Positions 48,875 to 54,556 of a stretch of 64,000 nt of DNA are shown in pieces. This stretch comes from Actinomycetes bacterium (lineage in GTDB: Bacteria; Actinomycetota; Acidimicrobiia; Acidimicrobiales; RAAP-2), in the NCBI GenBank assembly GCA_021791145.1, contig JAJYXE010000003.1, positions 38,679-102,678 of the forward strand, written 5' to 3'. Position 1 is the stretch's first letter. Every line of letters begins with the position of its first letter. Under the pieces are notes generated by a model, which had not been told where the DNA came from, did not search any database, and worked only from the letters and a program-made list of their open reading frames with translations. The position numbers and the translations under genes are program-made.

Positions 48875-51859
48875 ATGTCCGAGCCGAGAGAAGCGCCGGG
48901 AGAGGTGCCGGGAGAGGTGCCGGGAGAGGTGCCGGGAGAGGTGCCGGGAGACGGCGAGCCCCCCCGGCCGGTCGGCGTGGCCACGCGCCCGGTACGCGTG
49001 CCCGACAAGCCGACTGTCGAGGGGCTCGAGGCGAAGTGGGGCGAGGCGTGGGAGGCAGCCGGCACCTATCGCTTCGACGCGTCTGCGCCCGCTGACCGCA
49101 TCTTCTCAATCGACACCCCGCCACCCACGGTGTCCGGGTCCCTTCACATCGGGCACGCCATGTCCTACACGCACACCGACGTCATGGCCCGCTTCGAGCG
49201 CATGCGGCACAAAGCGGTGCTGTACCCGATGGGGTGGGACGACAACGGCCTTCCCACCGAGCGCCGCGTGCAGAACTACTTCGGGGTGCGCTGCGAGCCC
49301 GAGCTTCCCTACGACCCCGGCTTCGAGCCGCCGTCCCAGCGCGGCTCCGAGCTCGTCCCAGTGTCGAGACCCAACTTCGTCGAGCTCTGTCACCGCCTCA
49401 CCGCTGAGGACGAGCGTGTCTTCGAGCACGTGTGGAGGAGGCTCGGACTGTCAGTGGACTGGAGCCGGACCTACACCACGATCGGCGATCGATCGAGACG
49501 GATCTCCCAGCGTGCCTTCCTGCGCATGCTCGCGAGGGGCGAGGTCTACCAGCACGAAGCCCCCACGCTCTGGGACGTCGACTTCCGCACGGCGGTATCC
49601 CAGGCTGAGCTCGAGGAGCGCGAGCGGCCGGGCGCCTACCACCGCATCCGCTTCCCCCTCGACGGCGGTCGCCGGGGAGGTGGCCGAGGCGAGAGCGGCG
49701 GAGGCGAGAGCCGCGGAGGCGAGAGCCGCGGAGGCGAGAGCCGCGGAGGCGACCACACGTCGTCTGTCGAGATCGAGACGACCCGCCCCGAGCTCCTGCC
49801 AGCCTGCGTGGCTCTCGTCGCGCACCCCGACGACCCCCGGTACCGCCCGATTTTCGGGCGAGAGGCACGCACCCCGCTCTTCGGGGTGCGTGTCCCAGTC
49901 GTCGCTCACCCGCTCGCCGACCCCGAGAAGGGAACCGGCATCGCCATGGTGTGCACCTTCGGTGACACGACCGACATCGTGTGGTGGCGAGAGCTCGACC
50001 TTCCGACCCGTACGGTGGTGGGGCGCGACGGGCGTCTCGAACCGGTGCCTTGGGGAGCGCCGAACTGGGAGTCCGACGATCTCGACAGCGCGCTCAGCGC
50101 CTACGGCGAGCTCGTGGGCCGGACCGTCCACCAGGCGCAGGAGCGGATCGTCGAGCTGCTCGCCAGCTCCGGTGCCCTCGTCGGCGAACCCCGTCCGATC
50201 ACCCATCCCGTCAAGTTCTACGAGAAGGGCGAACGACCCCTCGAGATCGTCTCGTCGCGCCAGTGGTTCGTGCGCACCCTCCAGCTGCGTGGCCGGCTCC
50301 TCGAGCGAGGCGACGAACTACGTTGGCATCCCCCGTTCATGGCACATCGCTACCGCGCCTGGGTCGAGGGGCTGAACAGCGATTGGAACATCAGCCGCCA
50401 GCGGTTCTTCGGGGTCCCGTTCCCCGTGTGGTACCGGCTCGACGACGACGGCGTCGTCCACTACGACGAGCCGCTCCTGCCGTCAGAGGACCTGCTGCCC
50501 GTCGACCCCTCGACGAACGTCCCCGAGGGGTACTCCCCTGACCAGCGCGGCCGCCCCGGAGGCTTCGTAGGGGACCCGGACGTGATGGACACGTGGGCGA
50601 CCTCGTCGCTCACTCCGCTGATCGCCGCGGGCTGGGAGGAGGAGCCGGAGCTCTTCGAGCGGGTCTTCCCGTTCGACCTGCGTCCGCAGGGACACGACAT
50701 CATCCGCACGTGGCTCTTCTCCACTGTCGTGCGTTCGGAGCTGGAATTCGGGCAGCTCCCTTGGTCGGACGCGGCCATCTCCGGCTTCGTCACGGACCCC
50801 GACCGCAAGAAGATGTCGAAGTCCAAGGGCAACGCGACCACTCCGTTGCCCTACCTGGAGCGGCACGGCGCGGATTCGGTCCGGTACTGGGCGGCGAACG
50901 GCAAGCTCGGCACGGACACCGCGCTCGACGAGGGTCAGATGAAGGTCGGCCGCCGTCTTGCCATCAAGATCCTCAACGCGTCCAAGTTCGTGCTCGGAAG
51001 ACAGGCCGGCTCGGCAGGGGGGGACGCCGGCTCGGGAGAAGGCGCCGGCTCGGAAGGGGACGCCGGCTCGGGAGAAGGCGCCGGCTCGGAAGGGGACGCC
51101 GGCGCAGGGGGGGACGCCGGCGCGGGGGGGGACGCCGGCGCAGGGGGGGACGCCGGCCTCTCGGAGCCGATCGACCGGGACCTCCTGCGGCGGCTCGGCG
51201 GCGTCGTCAGAGTGGCGACCGCCGCTTTGGCTGACTACGACCACTCCCGTGCCCTGGAGGCGACCGAGAGCTTCTTCTGGTCCTTCTGCAACGACTACCT
51301 GGAGCTCGTGAAGAGCCGCTCCTACGGCGGTAGCGACGACCCTGGAGCCATCTCGGCGAGACGGGCGCTCTCGCTGGCCCTCTCGGTCCAGCTCCGACTC
51401 TTCGCGCCGTTCCTTCCTTACGTGACCGAGGAGGTGTGGAGCTGGTGGCAAGCCGGCTCGGTCCACCTCGCTCCCTGGCCGGACCCTGAGGCCGAGCTCG
51501 CTCCGCTCATCGCCACCAGGCTCGTCGACGCCGCAGGACCGTCCGTCGGTGAGAGATCCGCCGAGGGTGCTGGACCGGCCACGGATGGAGGACCGGCACC
51601 TGTCCGCTGGGGTGACGCGCCGGTGCTCGAGGTCACCTCCGAGGTCCTCGCCGCCGTCCGAAGGGCGAAGACGGAGGCCAAGCGCTCGATGCGGGCGAGA
51701 GTCGCACGCCTCACCGTCATCGACCGGCCTGATCGCCTCGAGAGCCTCCGCACGGCCCAACGGGATCTCCTCGAGGCCGGTGTGATCGACCCCGGGTGTC
51801 TCGTCCTGGAGGAGGGCGAGCAGCCGACAGTGTCCGTCGAGCTGGACGGGTCGTCGTAG
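48875..51859 (+). CDS. valS: Valyl-tRNA synthetase with three repeat insertions
   Basis: The 994-residue class I synthetase has the HIGH motif in TPPPTVSGSLHIGHAMSYTHTD, a CP1 editing domain, RWHPPFMAHRYRAWVEGLNSDWNISRQRFFGVPFP, and KMSKS in RKKMSKSKGN (~645). The C-terminal half has the anticodon-binding fold. It lacks the usual long C-terminal coiled-coil arm. Three tandem-repeat insertions occur: EVPG repeats at the N-terminus, GGESR repeats in the editing domain (~residues 270-292), and a Gly/Ala/Ser/Asp stretch (~715-760) joining the catalytic and anticodon domains. Confidence 0.95.
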   Translation: MSEPREAPGEVPGEVPGEVPGEVPGDGEPPRPVGVATRPVRVPDKPTVEGLEAKWGEAWEAAGTYRFDASAPADRIFSIDTPPPTVSGSLHIGHAMSYTHTDVMARFERMRHKAVLYPMGWDDNGLPTERRVQNYFGVRCEPELPYDPGFEPPSQRGSELVPVSRPNFVELCHRLTAEDERVFEHVWRRLGLSVDWSRTYTTIGDRSRRISQRAFLRMLARGEVYQHEAPTLWDVDFRTAVSQAELEERERPGAYHRIRFPLDGGRRGGGRGESGGGESRGGESRGGESRGGDHTSSVEIETTRPELLPACVALVAHPDDPRYRPIFGREARTPLFGVRVPVVAHPLADPEKGTGIAMVCTFGDTTDIVWWRELDLPTRTVVGRDGRLEPVPWGAPNWESDDLDSALSAYGELVGRTVHQAQERIVELLASSGALVGEPRPITHPVKFYEKGERPLEIVSSRQWFVRTLQLRGRLLERGDELRWHPPFMAHRYRAWVEGLNSDWNISRQRFFGVPFPVWYRLDDDGVVHYDEPLLPSEDLLPVDPSTNVPEGYSPDQRGRPGGFVGDPDVMDTWATSSLTPLIAAGWEEEPELFERVFPFDLRPQGHDIIRTWLFSTVVRSELEFGQLPWSDAAISGFVTDPDRKKMSKSKGNATTPLPYLERHGADSVRYWAANGKLGTDTALDEGQMKVGRRLAIKILNASKFVLGRQAGSAGGDAGSGEGAGSEGDAGSGEGAGSEGDAGAGGDAGAGGDAGAGGDAGLSEPIDRDLLRRLGGVVRVATAALADYDHSRALEATESFFWSFCNDYLELVKSRSYGGSDDPGAISARRALSLALSVQLRLFAPFLPYVTEEVWSWWQAGSVHLAPWPDPEAELAPLIATRLVDAAGPSVGERSAEGAGPATDGGPAPVRWGDAPVLEVTSEVLAAVRRAKTEAKRSMRARVARLTVIDRPDRLESLRTAQRDLLEAGVIDPGCLVLEEGEQPTVSVELDGSS
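48896..48955. repeat. 12-nt tandem repeat x5 at the valS N-terminus
   Basis: Copies of ccgggagaggtg encode PGEV repeats before the conserved domain. In frame. Confidence 0.95.
49688..49747. repeat. 15-nt tandem repeat x4 in the valS editing domain
   Basis: Copies of ggcgagagccgcgga encode GESRG repeats in a loop just before the VEIETTRPELLPA strand of the CP1 editing domain. In frame. Confidence 0.95.
51023..51148. repeat. 36-nt x2 and 18-nt x3 tandem repeats in valS
   Basis: Two 36-nt units (51023-51094) and three 18-nt units (51095-51148) encode a flexible GDAGSGEGAG/GGDAGA linker before the anticodon-binding domain. Both unit sizes are in frame. Confidence 0.95.
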
Positions 51860-51982
51860 ATAGCGCACCGTGGGGTTTGACGCTTCCCCACCGCGGAGAG
51901 GTAACCGGTTGAGACGCGATTGCACCGGGGGAGCGGCAGTGCACCTTTGGGACCGGAAGTACGGAGAGGACCGACGATAGAC

Positions 51983-52087
51983 GTGTCGACGAAGGACGTG
52001 TCGACGAAGGACGTGTCGACACAGGTCGTGCCGACGAAGGACATTCCGACTAAGGGGGTGTCAACCAAGGGGGTGTCGACCACGGAC
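51983..52087. repeat. 15-nt tandem repeat x7 at the 5' end of the RsbW-like gene
   Basis: Units of gtgtcgacgaaggac (the last four diverged) encode VSTKD repeats. Each intact unit begins with an in-frame GTG, so the array multiplies possible start codons. Confidence 0.95.
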
Positions 52088-52522: not shown

Positions 52523-52740
52523 CCCACCAGTTCAGCCTCGCGTCGCGCCCTTTCGTCGCGCCCCCGCGTCGTACCCGCACATAGCCCTGCGAGGCCGCAA
52601 TCCGGCCTAACCTCGTGTCCGCGGGTGTAGCGGTCGCCCCGCGGGGGTATCCCTGGCGTCCGGGCACCCGAGGTTGCAGGGCCTCGCTGCACCGCGTGTG
52701 CTGGATCGGCGCCCGCATCGGGGCTCGAAACGAGACCCTT

Positions 52741-52780
52741 CCACTGAGGGGACCACGAATCCACTGAGGGGACCACGAAA
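52741..52780. repeat. 20-nt direct repeat x2 in the rsbV leader
   Basis: Two copies of ccactgaggggaccacgaat lead directly into the AAAAGGAG ribosome site of the STAS gene. The rest of 52523-52740 shows no gene. Confidence 0.9.
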
Positions 52781-52794
52781 AGGAGCCGTGACGT

Positions 52795-53142
52795 ATGGAC
52801 CAGAGCTTCAAGATCCAAGATGGCGTGGTCGACGGCGTGCCGGTCGTCGCGGCGTCCGGGGAGATCGACGTCGCGACCGCCCCCCCGTTGCGAGACCGAT
52901 TGCAGGCACTCACCACGTCGGGCAATGCCAACGTCGTCGTCGACCTCCTCGGCGTGACCTTCCTCGACTCCACGGCGCTCGGGGTCCTCGTAGGCGCCCT
53001 CAAGCGCTGCCGTGAGGCGGGTGGCGACCTCCCCTTGGTGATCGCAGAGCCACGGATCCTGAAGGTCTTCGAGATCACGGGTCTGACCGGCGTCTTTTCG
53101 ATCTTCGAGACCGTGCACGAAGCGGTGGGGAGCGTGAAGTGA
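52795..53142 (+). CDS. rsbV: STAS-domain anti-anti-sigma factor (RsbV-like)
   Basis: The 115-residue STAS protein has GEIDVATAPPLRDRL and the phosphorylation-site strand VDLLGVTFLDSTALGVLVGALKR, with the candidate Ser in LDSTALG. When unphosphorylated it binds RsbW and frees the sigma factor. AAAAGGAG lies 9 nt upstream of the ATG. Its stop overlaps the next gene's GTG (GTGA), so kinase and target are coupled. Confidence 0.95.
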   Translation: MDQSFKIQDGVVDGVPVVAASGEIDVATAPPLRDRLQALTTSGNANVVVDLLGVTFLDSTALGVLVGALKRCREAGGDLPLVIAEPRILKVFEITGLTGVFSIFETVHEAVGSVK

Positions 53143-53549
53143 GCATGGTCGAGGACAAGACGAGCACCGTCTCGGTCGATCTTTCCATTCCTGTCCAGGC
53201 CGATCTCGTGGTCCTCGCACGACTTGCCGCGGCGACCGTCGCGAGCCGGGCAGGCTTTGGCGTGGAGGACATCGAGGACCTTCGCCTCGCTGTCGAAGAG
53301 CTTTGCCTGTCGCTCGTCGGTTCACGTGAAGACGGCCGGCTCCATCTCAACTACGAATGCGACGGAGACGCGATCACCGTGCATTGTGCGTACGAAGTGG
53401 GCGACCCGACGCGCGGTCCGAGCGGAGCGGACGCCGACGACCTGTCTCTTCGGATCCTCGACGCGCTCGTCGACGAGCACGGCCATGGGCCGAGCAACGG
53501 GCAGCCGGCCGCGTGGTTGCGCAAGCAACGGTCGGACGGGACGGTCTGA
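53139..53549 (+). CDS. rsbW: RsbW-type anti-sigma factor/serine kinase
   Basis: The 136-residue protein has a recognisable N-box helix (VEDIEDLRLAVEELCLSLVGS), but the GHKL glycine boxes are weak, as in divergent actinobacterial anti-sigma ATPases. It is assigned by position: it overlaps rsbV (GTGA) and precedes the sigma gene. An ATG at 53145 is an alternative start. Its last codons are themselves part of the 20-nt repeat array that runs to the sigma gene. Confidence 0.85.
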   Translation: MSMVEDKTSTVSVDLSIPVQADLVVLARLAAATVASRAGFGVEDIEDLRLAVEELCLSLVGSREDGRLHLNYECDGDAITVHCAYEVGDPTRGPSGADADDLSLRILDALVDEHGHGPSNGQPAAWLRKQRSDGTV

Positions 53550-53683
53550 CGTAATGACGGGACGGTCTGACGCATGACGGGACGGTCTGACGTAATGACG
53601 GGACGGTCTGACGCATGACGGGACGGTCTGACGCATGACGGGACGGTCTGACGCATGAATGATGACGGTCTGACGCATGAATG
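53535..53683 (+). repeat. 20/21-nt tandem repeat forming a chain of ATGA-linked mini-ORFs between rsbW and the sigma gene
   Basis: Six units of gacgggacggtctgacgcat (two are 21-nt gtaat variants) and one diverged unit span from the end of rsbW to the sigma gene start. They encode consecutive mini-ORFs: 53554-53577 (MTGRSDA), 53574-53618 (MTGRSDVMTGRSDA), 53615-53638 and 53635-53658 (MTGRSDA each), and 53655-53684 (MNDDGLTHE). Each stop overlaps the next ATG as ATGA, and the last overlaps the sigma ATG at 53681. I verified this codon by codon. Whether they are translated is unknown. Confidence 0.9.
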
Positions 53684-54556
53684 ATGACTGACGAGGCCCG
53701 CTGGCTGGGCGAAGACACGAAGGAGCTTTTCCTCGAACTTGTCGCGAACCGGGACCCCGCCGTGCGGGACCGGCTCGTGACTGCGCATCTCGGGTTGGCG
53801 CACCAGCTCGCTCGTCGCTACGCCAACCGGGGAGAGCCTTACGAGGACCTGGTGCAGGTCGCCTCGCTCGCGATCGTCAAATCGGTCGACAGGTTCGATC
53901 CCAATCGCGGCGTCGAGTTCACCACCTTCGCGACGCGCACGGTCATCGGCGAGCTGAAGCGTCACTTCCGCGACAAGGGGTGGGCGGTGCGCGCACCGAG
54001 AAGGGTCCAGGAGCTCTACCTCGAGCTAGGCAAGGTGACCGAGACCCTGTCCCAGGAGCTCGGTCGCTCGCCGACCGTGCACGAGCTCGCTGTGGCGACC
54101 GCGGCCACCGAGGAGGCCGTGCTCGAAGCCCTGGAAGCCGGGCAGGGGTACCGCACCTCCTCGATCGACGCGACCGACCGGAACGAAGAGACCCTCGCGT
54201 CCCACATCGGAGAGGACGACGCGTCGTTCGACACCATCGAGGACCGCGAGCTGCTGGCCCCTGCCATTGCCCAGCTCGCGCCGCGTGAGCGGCTGATCCT
54301 CCAGCTCCGTTTCGCCAACGGGCTCACCCAGTCCGAGATCGCCGCTCGGGTCGGCATCAGCCAGATGCACGTCTCAAGACTGCTGGCTGCCAGCCTCGAG
54401 CAGCTGCGCAGGACCGTAGCGGCCACCCGTGAGGACGATTCAGCCCACGCCACATCAGGCGATCGCACGCTCCCCGCCAGGCCCGAGCACATCCCGACCA
54501 AGCCCGGGCACCCCACCCGGGGGCGCCCAACTCGCCTTGACGGACAGGCTCGATAG
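53681..54556 (+). CDS. Sigma-70 family factor, SigB/SigF group
   Basis: The 291-residue sigma factor has region 2 (LVTAHLGLAHQLARRYANRGEPYEDLVQVASLAIVKSVDRFDPNRGVEFTTFATRTVIGELKRHFRDKGW), region 3 (RSPTVHELAVATAATEEAVLEAL) and the region 4 HTH (LTQSEIAARVGISQMHVSRLLAASLEQLR). It directs RNA polymerase to stress or developmental promoters and is held by RsbW. The ATG at 53681 overlaps the stop of the last mini-ORF in the repeat array; ATG 53684 is the next codon. The tail after ~250 is disordered. Confidence 0.96.
   Translation: MMTDEARWLGEDTKELFLELVANRDPAVRDRLVTAHLGLAHQLARRYANRGEPYEDLVQVASLAIVKSVDRFDPNRGVEFTTFATRTVIGELKRHFRDKGWAVRAPRRVQELYLELGKVTETLSQELGRSPTVHELAVATAATEEAVLEALEAGQGYRTSSIDATDRNEETLASHIGEDDASFDTIEDRELLAPAIAQLAPRERLILQLRFANGLTQSEIAARVGISQMHVSRLLAASLEQLRRTVAATREDDSAHATSGDRTLPARPEHIPTKPGHPTRGRPTRLDGQAR

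Follow-up and report, generated by a model that had tools for sequence, protein, structure and literature searches.

The locus described here raises the question of how translation could pass from an rsbW-like anti-sigma gene to the sigma gene behind it across 131 nt of tandem repeat, and whether the chain of very short reading frames encoded by that repeat is a coupling device or a by-product of repeat growth. We analyzed it within a 64,000-nt stretch of DNA (hereafter, the window) with 70.8% G+C content. The closest RsbW relatives among genome contigs came from Acidimicrobiales or "Actinomycetes" metagenome-assembled genomes, with at most 79% identity over the best segment, and a search of viral contigs returned no relative.

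The operon and the array at its rsbW-sigma junction

Three plus-strand genes, in the order rsbV, rsbW and a SigB/F/G sigma gene, reproduce the arrangement of STAS antagonist, HATPase anti-sigma factor and sigma factor that defines RsbV-RsbW-SigB partner-switching operons. The rsbV-like anti-sigma antagonist (52795..53142; PF01740, 7e-22; TIGR00377, 3e-25) overlaps the rsbW-like anti-sigma kinase (53139..53549; PF13581, 1e-6; with RsbW relatives) through a GTGA at the rsbV stop, and rsbW ends with the TGA at 53547-53549. The SigB/SigF/SigG-family sigma gene occupies 53681..54556 and scores above the TIGR02980 cut-off (1e-77); the window RsbW scores below the RsbW equivalog cut-offs.

Upstream of rsbV, a pattern scan with what we take to be the SigB-type consensus located GTGTAG-N14-GGGTAT on the plus strand (52625..52650), which at the level of the motif supplies the SigB-type promoter of such operons and is the sole site in the 64 kb, both strands included. 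Nine of 22 relatives (L001-L005, L007-L010) carry this motif 493-547 nt upstream of rsbW; the full motif is absent in the other 13, where L006, L011, L013 and L015 have GGGTAY only and the rest lack even that. In L009 the promoter stretch is doubled, one copy being placed about 774 nt and the other about 547 nt upstream of rsbW, 227 nt apart. The original prediction presupposed that the sigma gene has no strong promoter of its own within the array, and a motif scan of 53139-53700, which takes in rsbW and the array, agreed, finding neither a SigB-type nor a TANNNT -10 motif. A sigma-70 promoter scan found 0 sites with 0.0 expected, and is uninformative.

Shine-Dalgarno pairing is poor at the sigma start (-2.5 kcal/mol, versus -8.1 at rsbV, -7.5 at rsbW and -7.2 at the mini-ORF starts), and the word behind the mini-ORF value, GGGACGG, is weak to moderate, its score being reached by 7% of random positions. 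At the aligned sigma starts of 22 relatives, some of which are not true starts, values range from 0.6 to -8.6. Several are good (about -7 in L006, L013 and L015; -8.6 in L021), so coupling need not be the sole route to sigma translation in those genomes. The rsbV leader carries an exact 20-nt duplication adjoining the Shine-Dalgarno sequence (52740..52779, plus strand; TRF period 20, 2.0 copies, 100%), and the operon therefore holds two independent tandem repeats, this one and the junction array. Elsewhere in the window, in-frame 12-, 15- and 18-nt repeats occur in ValRS and RsbA-like genes (48883-48951, 49686-49752, 51020-51157 and 51972-52080), and of the 24 coding arrays in the window 19 have periods that are multiples of three.

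The junction array extends over 53535..53685 on the plus strand, and TRF delimits it at 53535-53680 with period 20 and 7.1 copies. A 20-nt unit had been proposed, which holds for the period but not for every copy, as seven units of 21, 20, 21, 20, 20, 27 (20+7) and 22 nt follow one another. The unit reads GACGGGACGGTCTGACGCAT, and every one of them repeats the rsbW end, TCTGA included, and has an ATGA downstream.

Re-reading confirmed, coordinate by coordinate, the chain that the original prediction had described from the rsbW stop through five mini-ORFs to the sigma ATG, together with the five ATGA junctions that join mini-ORFs 1-5 and the sigma gene. Mini-ORF 1 (MTGRSDA, 7 codons; 53554..53577) starts 4 nt past the rsbW stop. 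Mini-ORF 2 (MTGRSDVMTGRSDA, 14 codons; 53574..53618), mini-ORF 3 (MTGRSDA, 7 codons; 53615..53638) and mini-ORF 4 (MTGRSDA, 7 codons; 53635..53658) follow through ATGA links, and mini-ORF 5 (MNDDGLTHE, 9 codons; 53655..53684; all five on the plus strand) ends in a TGA (53682-53684) that overlaps the sigma ATG 53681 as ATGA and a second ATG, 53684, as TGATG. It is ATG 53684 that aligns with the MTDEAR start of relatives. More than one route through the array is possible because additional ATGs are present (53595, 53659, 53662 and 53677), and a 21-nt unit keeps the chain while extending one mini-ORF in frame. The spacing from stop to next start is +4, followed by five overlaps of -4. Every step of the chain falls within the range of about -8 to +10 nt associated with termination-reinitiation, and the direct spacing of 131 nt from rsbW stop to sigma start falls outside it.

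The array looks like a tandem expansion of an old rsbW/sigma junction, comprising rsbW tail, stop, spacer and start, because its last unit keeps the 7-nt gap from TGA to first sigma ATG that is common to eight relatives (L001, L003, L006, L008, L009, L010, L013 and L015). Its breakpoints have short words in common (GA and GAC, by eye), and the 22-nt and 20-nt units suggest that more than one duplication event lies behind it.

The junction in relatives and at other gene pairs

The RsbW search gave 33 loci, of which 11 Eremiobacterota with partial matches were excluded. Further loci were added from later searches and identical contexts were merged, which gave 54 distinct junction contexts, window included; L071, L073, L085 and L086 have no adjacent rsbW-sigma pair. 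A short, mostly coupled rsbW-sigma gap prevails in related genomes, with an ATG/GTG path, direct or through mini-ORFs, tight or near, in 47 of the 53 distinct relatives. Close geometry of a kind that would allow coupling is thus the rule among them. Direct overlaps account for 35 relatives (22 NTGA overlaps of 4 nt and 13 of 1 nt), and one more has a direct start within -8 to +12 nt. NTGA-linked mini-ORFs occur singly in six relatives and as a pair in one, and a near-linked mini-ORF in four, 2 of these 11 relay calls being doubtful (in L061 there is a direct start as well, and the gap in L072 is 194 nt long). Among the six relatives with no ATG/GTG path, four (L021, L022, L079 and L081) show, as judged by eye, a TTGA that sits in frame at the stop codon. 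In L004 the sigma gene starts 20 nt past the rsbW stop without an ATG/GTG path, and its frame (protein P0128) seems to continue open through the end of rsbW, which would make an in-frame extension possible.

The close relatives L001, L002, L003, L008, L009 and L010 have one or two GTGA-linked mini-ORFs at this junction. L002 contains an extra 11-nt copy of GTGATGACGGC with the links retained, and the mini-ORFs of L002 and L003 resemble 11-nt duplications; the units of L001 and L008-L010 are too diverged to tell. A long tandem array at rsbW-sigma occurs in the window only, among the 54 contexts. Our tree has weak support at key nodes (41-90), and we therefore make no claim about how many times the first mini-ORF arose.

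The array of linked junctions is not a one-off, and putative relays like it recur in related genomes. Our survey covered about 2 Mb of related DNA plus eleven small stretches picked by pattern scan; gene calls in the relay scripts were crude (G+C by codon position), and the junction survey kept one best period per stop, so that some junction duplications were missed; the analyses of 229 gene pairs and 535 junctions described below addressed these duplications directly. Strict NTGA paths were found between MoxR and VWA/DUF2201 genes in G001 (offsets -1, 13, 27; 14-nt units, one base different), an ABC ATPase gene and a gene without a Pfam match in G056 (-1, 40, 54, 68), the gene pair L210 in G056 (-1, 16), adk and map in G054 (-1, 31, 42, 53), and coxE and xdhC in G056 (-1, 19, 33, 47, 61, 75). 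Two more were seen, in G052 from gltB to gltD (-1, 25) and in G044 from a permease-like gene to an unknown one (-1, 25, 51, 77, 85, 111, 125), with names assigned by eye and the downstream start uncertain in both; these are period-13 arrays, so period class 1 (period 1 mod 3) makes relays too. Near paths were seen between a molybdopterin oxidoreductase gene and a NuoF/2Fe-2S fusion gene, a formate-dehydrogenase-like pair, in G006 (-1, 10, 27), and at L250, which is doubtful and ends 172 nt downstream.

Periodic RTGA arrays lie between co-directional genes without a linked path at L093, L162, L178, L206 and L248, and L242, L243, L246 and L247 have no clear co-directional junction. The L093 array (G001:C4, minus strand, about 1342-1440) consists of six copies of the 16-nt ATGACGGCAGAGGAAG, with a Shine-Dalgarno-like word and ATGA, between two co-directional genes and with no linked path. 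Two relatives of the MoxR-VWA pair, L231 and L232 (about 70% MoxR identity), have no array and no near ATG/GTG path. Long ATGA/GTGA tandem arrays of exact or near-exact units are also present in other genomes of the family (G022:C140:2382-2462, G052:C223:6172-6252 and G061:C28:44618-44741). Some matches with GTGA at 11-nt spacing (e.g., G077:C55 and G093:C2) have unlike units and are not tandem arrays; they resemble PHO-box direct repeats.

Across 229 gene pairs with a TGA stop and a gap of 8-200 nt, strict relays with one, two and three mini-ORFs numbered 12, 5 and 1, versus 117, 12 and 0 in 2290 shuffled spacers. Single mini-ORF paths are therefore at chance, and those with at least two mini-ORFs exceed it about fivefold. 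Three of the six relays with at least two mini-ORFs are tandem (L002, L119 and L224; by eye).

The copy-number comparison that had been proposed for related genomes was run at a non-sigma junction, that of the molybdopterin oxidoreductase and NuoF-like genes in G006 and G053 (97.0% identity over 1301 aligned columns, gaps included), and there the units change and the linkage stays. G006 has two ATGA units and G053 five (+33 nt), with linked paths of -1, 10, 27 and -1, 10, 21, 32, 43, 60, respectively. A 15-nt in-frame repeat at the end of the upstream gene (L203, L241) also varies, with three versus two copies, and the net length difference is 18 nt.

Chance, robustness and the period-class test

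The longest ATG-only chain in the window has five links, compared with a maximum of 3 in 60 Markov-1 shuffles of one strand. When GTG and TTG were also allowed as starts, 16 of the 60 shuffles gave five or six links, and the chain is therefore unusual for ATG only. When the 20-nt unit was shuffled and six copies were placed in tandem between the original ends, 333 of 3000 trials gave a linked path; shuffling the spacer gave one in 221 of 3000. The repeat itself is certainly non-random; linkage, given such a repeat, is not astonishing.

Provided that no other in-frame stop intervenes, a repeated NTGA links each unit to the next when the period is 2 mod 3, links every second unit when it is 1 mod 3 and fuses the copies in frame when it is 0 mod 3. 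Duplications were simulated in the collapsed window junction and in 13 relatives' junctions (14 in total). Within -8 to +12 nt, a path was kept in at least 0.98 of cases, except in L004, which has no path at the outset and gave 0, and for period class 1 in L005, L007 and L012 (0.55-0.60). Under the stricter limit of -5 to +5 nt, retention of a path fell to 0.01-0.30 of cases for the collapsed window junction, to 0-0.10 for L006, L013 and L015 and, in class 2, to 0.67 for L001; the remaining relatives kept it in at least 0.96, save for about half of class 1 in L005, L007 and L012.

That every added or lost unit keeps the chain, as originally claimed, is correct for the 20- and 21-nt units and not for the others. 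With zero to five 20-/21-nt units ahead of the last two, 63 of 63 orders kept a path, as did 31 of 31 copy numbers tried in the real array (both within -6 to +5 nt). In two arrangements without the 27-nt unit that precedes the 22-nt one, and also when the 22-nt unit was doubled, no path remained within -6 to +5 nt, although one persisted within -8 to +12 nt. The chain was broken by 28 of 125 single-base deletions and 36 of 375 substitutions. The chain is robust, and its presence requires no selection once an NTGA junction is repeated. Linkage is weak evidence of selection because duplication mostly yields it and 7-11% of shuffles are linked, and the copies are nearly identical, hence without a record of purifying selection.

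Selection on the chain was also sought through period classes, in tandem RTGAx4 arrays from 172 family genomes (mean adjacent identity 0.8, one array per contig). The count took in periods 11, 13, 14, 16 and 17, leaving aside 10, 19 and 20; matches whose units differed from one another were discarded, as were arrays that reduce to a shorter primitive period. A scripted count gave 82 arrays with periods 11/14/17 to 29 with periods 13/16, versus 39 to 32 among arrays without RTGA in about 2 Mb (Fisher p 0.010), in a comparison that mixes samples and thresholds of different kinds. Against the same 39 to 32, identity cut-offs of 0.75 and 0.85 gave 86 to 29 (p 0.006) and 76 to 24 (p 0.005). The 82 to 29 ratio had p 0.04 against non-coding arrays without RTGA (26 to 20) and p 0.16 against a reversed-pattern control (25 to 16 genomes; p 0.11 at 0.75 and 0.10 at 0.85).

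Non-coding arrays with periodic RTGA fell into 12, 3 and 3 for periods of 2, 1 and 0 mod 3 (n = 18), and those without it into 51, 37 and 73 (n = 161); Fisher p was 0.007 over all classes, although the coding filter biases class 0, and 0.15 for classes 2 versus 1 alone. For arrays between co-directional genes only, the counts for classes 2, 1 and 0 were 5, 1 and 1 with sense RTGA and 17, 13 and 9 with RTGA on neither strand. At 535 junctions, repeated RTGA 11-mers occurred at 10 (6, 1 and 3 for classes 2, 1 and 0), and control words gave mixed results (GTGG/ATGG 4, 0, 0; GAGC/GAGG 5, 4, 5; CGAC/CGAG 2, 5, 9), so that the RTGA pattern is not distinctive. With p 0.15 for classes 2 versus 1 and mixed control words, we rejected period class as a sign of selection on the chain.

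A putative reinitiation relay, its alternatives and known systems

The chain is probably a relay of successive reinitiation steps, in which the repeat can grow while rsbW and the sigma gene stay coupled. A ribosome ending rsbW would restart at mini-ORF 1, stop at its TGA, restart at the overlapping ATG and repeat this across the five mini-ORFs to the sigma gene. Since a repeated NTGA junction usually leaves a linked path, the copy number could rise or fall with the two genes still coupled. Relay output would be the product of the per-step efficiencies, which over six steps comes to 0.53 at 0.9 per step and 0.016 at 0.5. The number of steps should alter the amount of sigma factor per RsbW, with neither the size nor the direction of the effect fixed, because the units also carry the weak Shine-Dalgarno-like GGGACGG. 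The six UGA terminations between rsbW and sigma predict a strong dependence on release factor 2.

Such a relay would carry coupling over 131 nt, where direct reinitiation should fail according to most studies. According to PMC10666635, reinitiation is almost zero by about 20-38 nt: in E. coli, a distance of 38 nt reduced it by 80-90% for two gene pairs and abolished it for a third, and in Haloferax 22-23 nt nearly or fully abolished it. The same paper reports that an upstream gene needs no more than its final 15 nt for reinitiation. Exceptions appear in the review PMC12548453, where some E. coli reporter studies show long-gap coupling without relays. None of the experiments considered used an upstream reading frame as short as the 7-codon mini-ORFs. 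The originally proposed termination-reinitiation at rsbW-sigma draws support from the geometry and the relatives' short junctions, and linkage alone adds no evidence of selection.

An unlikely alternative is that the chain has no role, the junction having been expanded by slippage in a repeat-prone genome while sigma is translated otherwise, by weak initiation or long-range scanning. The window does hold 44 merged tandem arrays in 64 kb, or 6.9 per 10 kb (0-8.1 in 22 relatives), simulated duplications mostly keep a path outside L004, L005, L007 and L012, and the near-identical copies carry no trace of purifying selection; such neutrality sits poorly with the weak sigma Shine-Dalgarno sequence, with the lack of a SigB-type or TANNNT motif inside and with a short junction order-wide. 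Equally unlikely is a copy-number rheostat under selection, in which slippage would shift the step number and the sigma:RsbW ratio and so create heritable stress-response variants. The change from two to five units between close genomes is in keeping with it but concerns another gene pair. The excess of periods 11/14/17 among RTGA arrays (p 0.010) likewise favors it, but that comparison mixes samples and thresholds, weakens to p 0.04 and 0.16 against other controls and, for non-coding arrays alone, to 0.15, and period-13 arrays form relays too. That RsbW:SigB stoichiometry matters, as PMC13068326 and PMC8073009 indicate, also fits a rheostat.

It is improbable that the array acts as a spacer that reduces or abolishes sigma translation: 131 nt from stop to start and the multiplication of per-step losses would have that effect, but a linked path spans the array and the sigma gene is intact. 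Slighter still is the prospect of a DNA- or RNA-level element, either tandem regulator sites at about two helical turns per unit or an RNA structure. The 20-22-nt units and the fold (z = -2.5, with 1 of 200 shuffles folding equally well) point that way; against it, the unit core occurs elsewhere in the window at chance level (21 hits with at most 2 mismatches versus 21.95 expected, all 7 exact hits lying in the array), relatives' junctions lack such a repeat and the array has no Rfam match. An assembly artefact is very improbable. The source appears to be of metagenome type and the array is near short-read length, but assemblers usually collapse repeats rather than expand them, and similar arrays occur in several independent assemblies.

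Returning to the relay, we suggest only tentatively that repeated stop-start junctions are a general Acidimicrobiales element, forming slippage-prone relays that would preserve coupling at almost any copy number and serve as evolvable dials of protein ratios, here of sigma to anti-sigma. Most studies treat reinitiation as strictly local. A repeat that rebuilds a stop-start junction in each unit could extend it over long distances, and changes of copy number could shift the ratio of the two proteins with neither gene acquiring a point mutation. If ribosomes use the relay, it would provide a natural multi-step assay of reinitiation efficiency and a source of heritable variation in the stress-response threshold, and gene callers may be listing such spans as empty intergenic DNA.

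The original prediction knew of no tandem mini-ORF relay, and none was described in the open-access literature searched, most subscription papers lying outside that scope; the feature is, however, not confined to the rsbW-sigma locus studied here. The putative relay is best seen as a variant of termination-reinitiation coupling in which the tandem mini-ORF series is the new part. In iraD, a short upstream ORF reportedly drives iraD by being translated; the likeness lies in a short ORF driving the next gene, and the difference in that iraD has one ORF and no repeat array between two genes. The ATGA/TGATG coupling treated in PMC6728339, PMC12548453 and PMC10666635 has the same junction type, expected local mechanism and layout as rsbW-sigma in most relatives, but it is a single step, whereas the window has five repeat-made mini-ORFs over 131 nt.

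The TAACTGA heptamer repeats that precede start codons in Beggiatoaceae, Cyanobacteria and Bacteroidetes are, according to PMC4679880, likewise stop-containing tandem repeats just ahead of starts, some overlapping an upstream stop. The author suggests translational control and reports indels in 7-nt steps between two strains; "reinitiation" and "translational coupling" occur 0 times in the main text. Those repeats differ in being a fixed heptamer with no start codon in the unit and no linked ORFs, in place of the GACGGGACGGTCTGACGCAT unit of the window. Within the partner-switching family, Listeria rsbW start-codon changes alter SigB activity (PMC13068326), and in B. subtilis a shortage of release factor 2 at the stop of the rsbV-rsbW AUGA activates sigma B (PMC8073009). 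This B. subtilis operon is likewise a partner-switching system in which an NTGA junction sets the stoichiometry, but with a single overlap that is placed between rsbV and rsbW.
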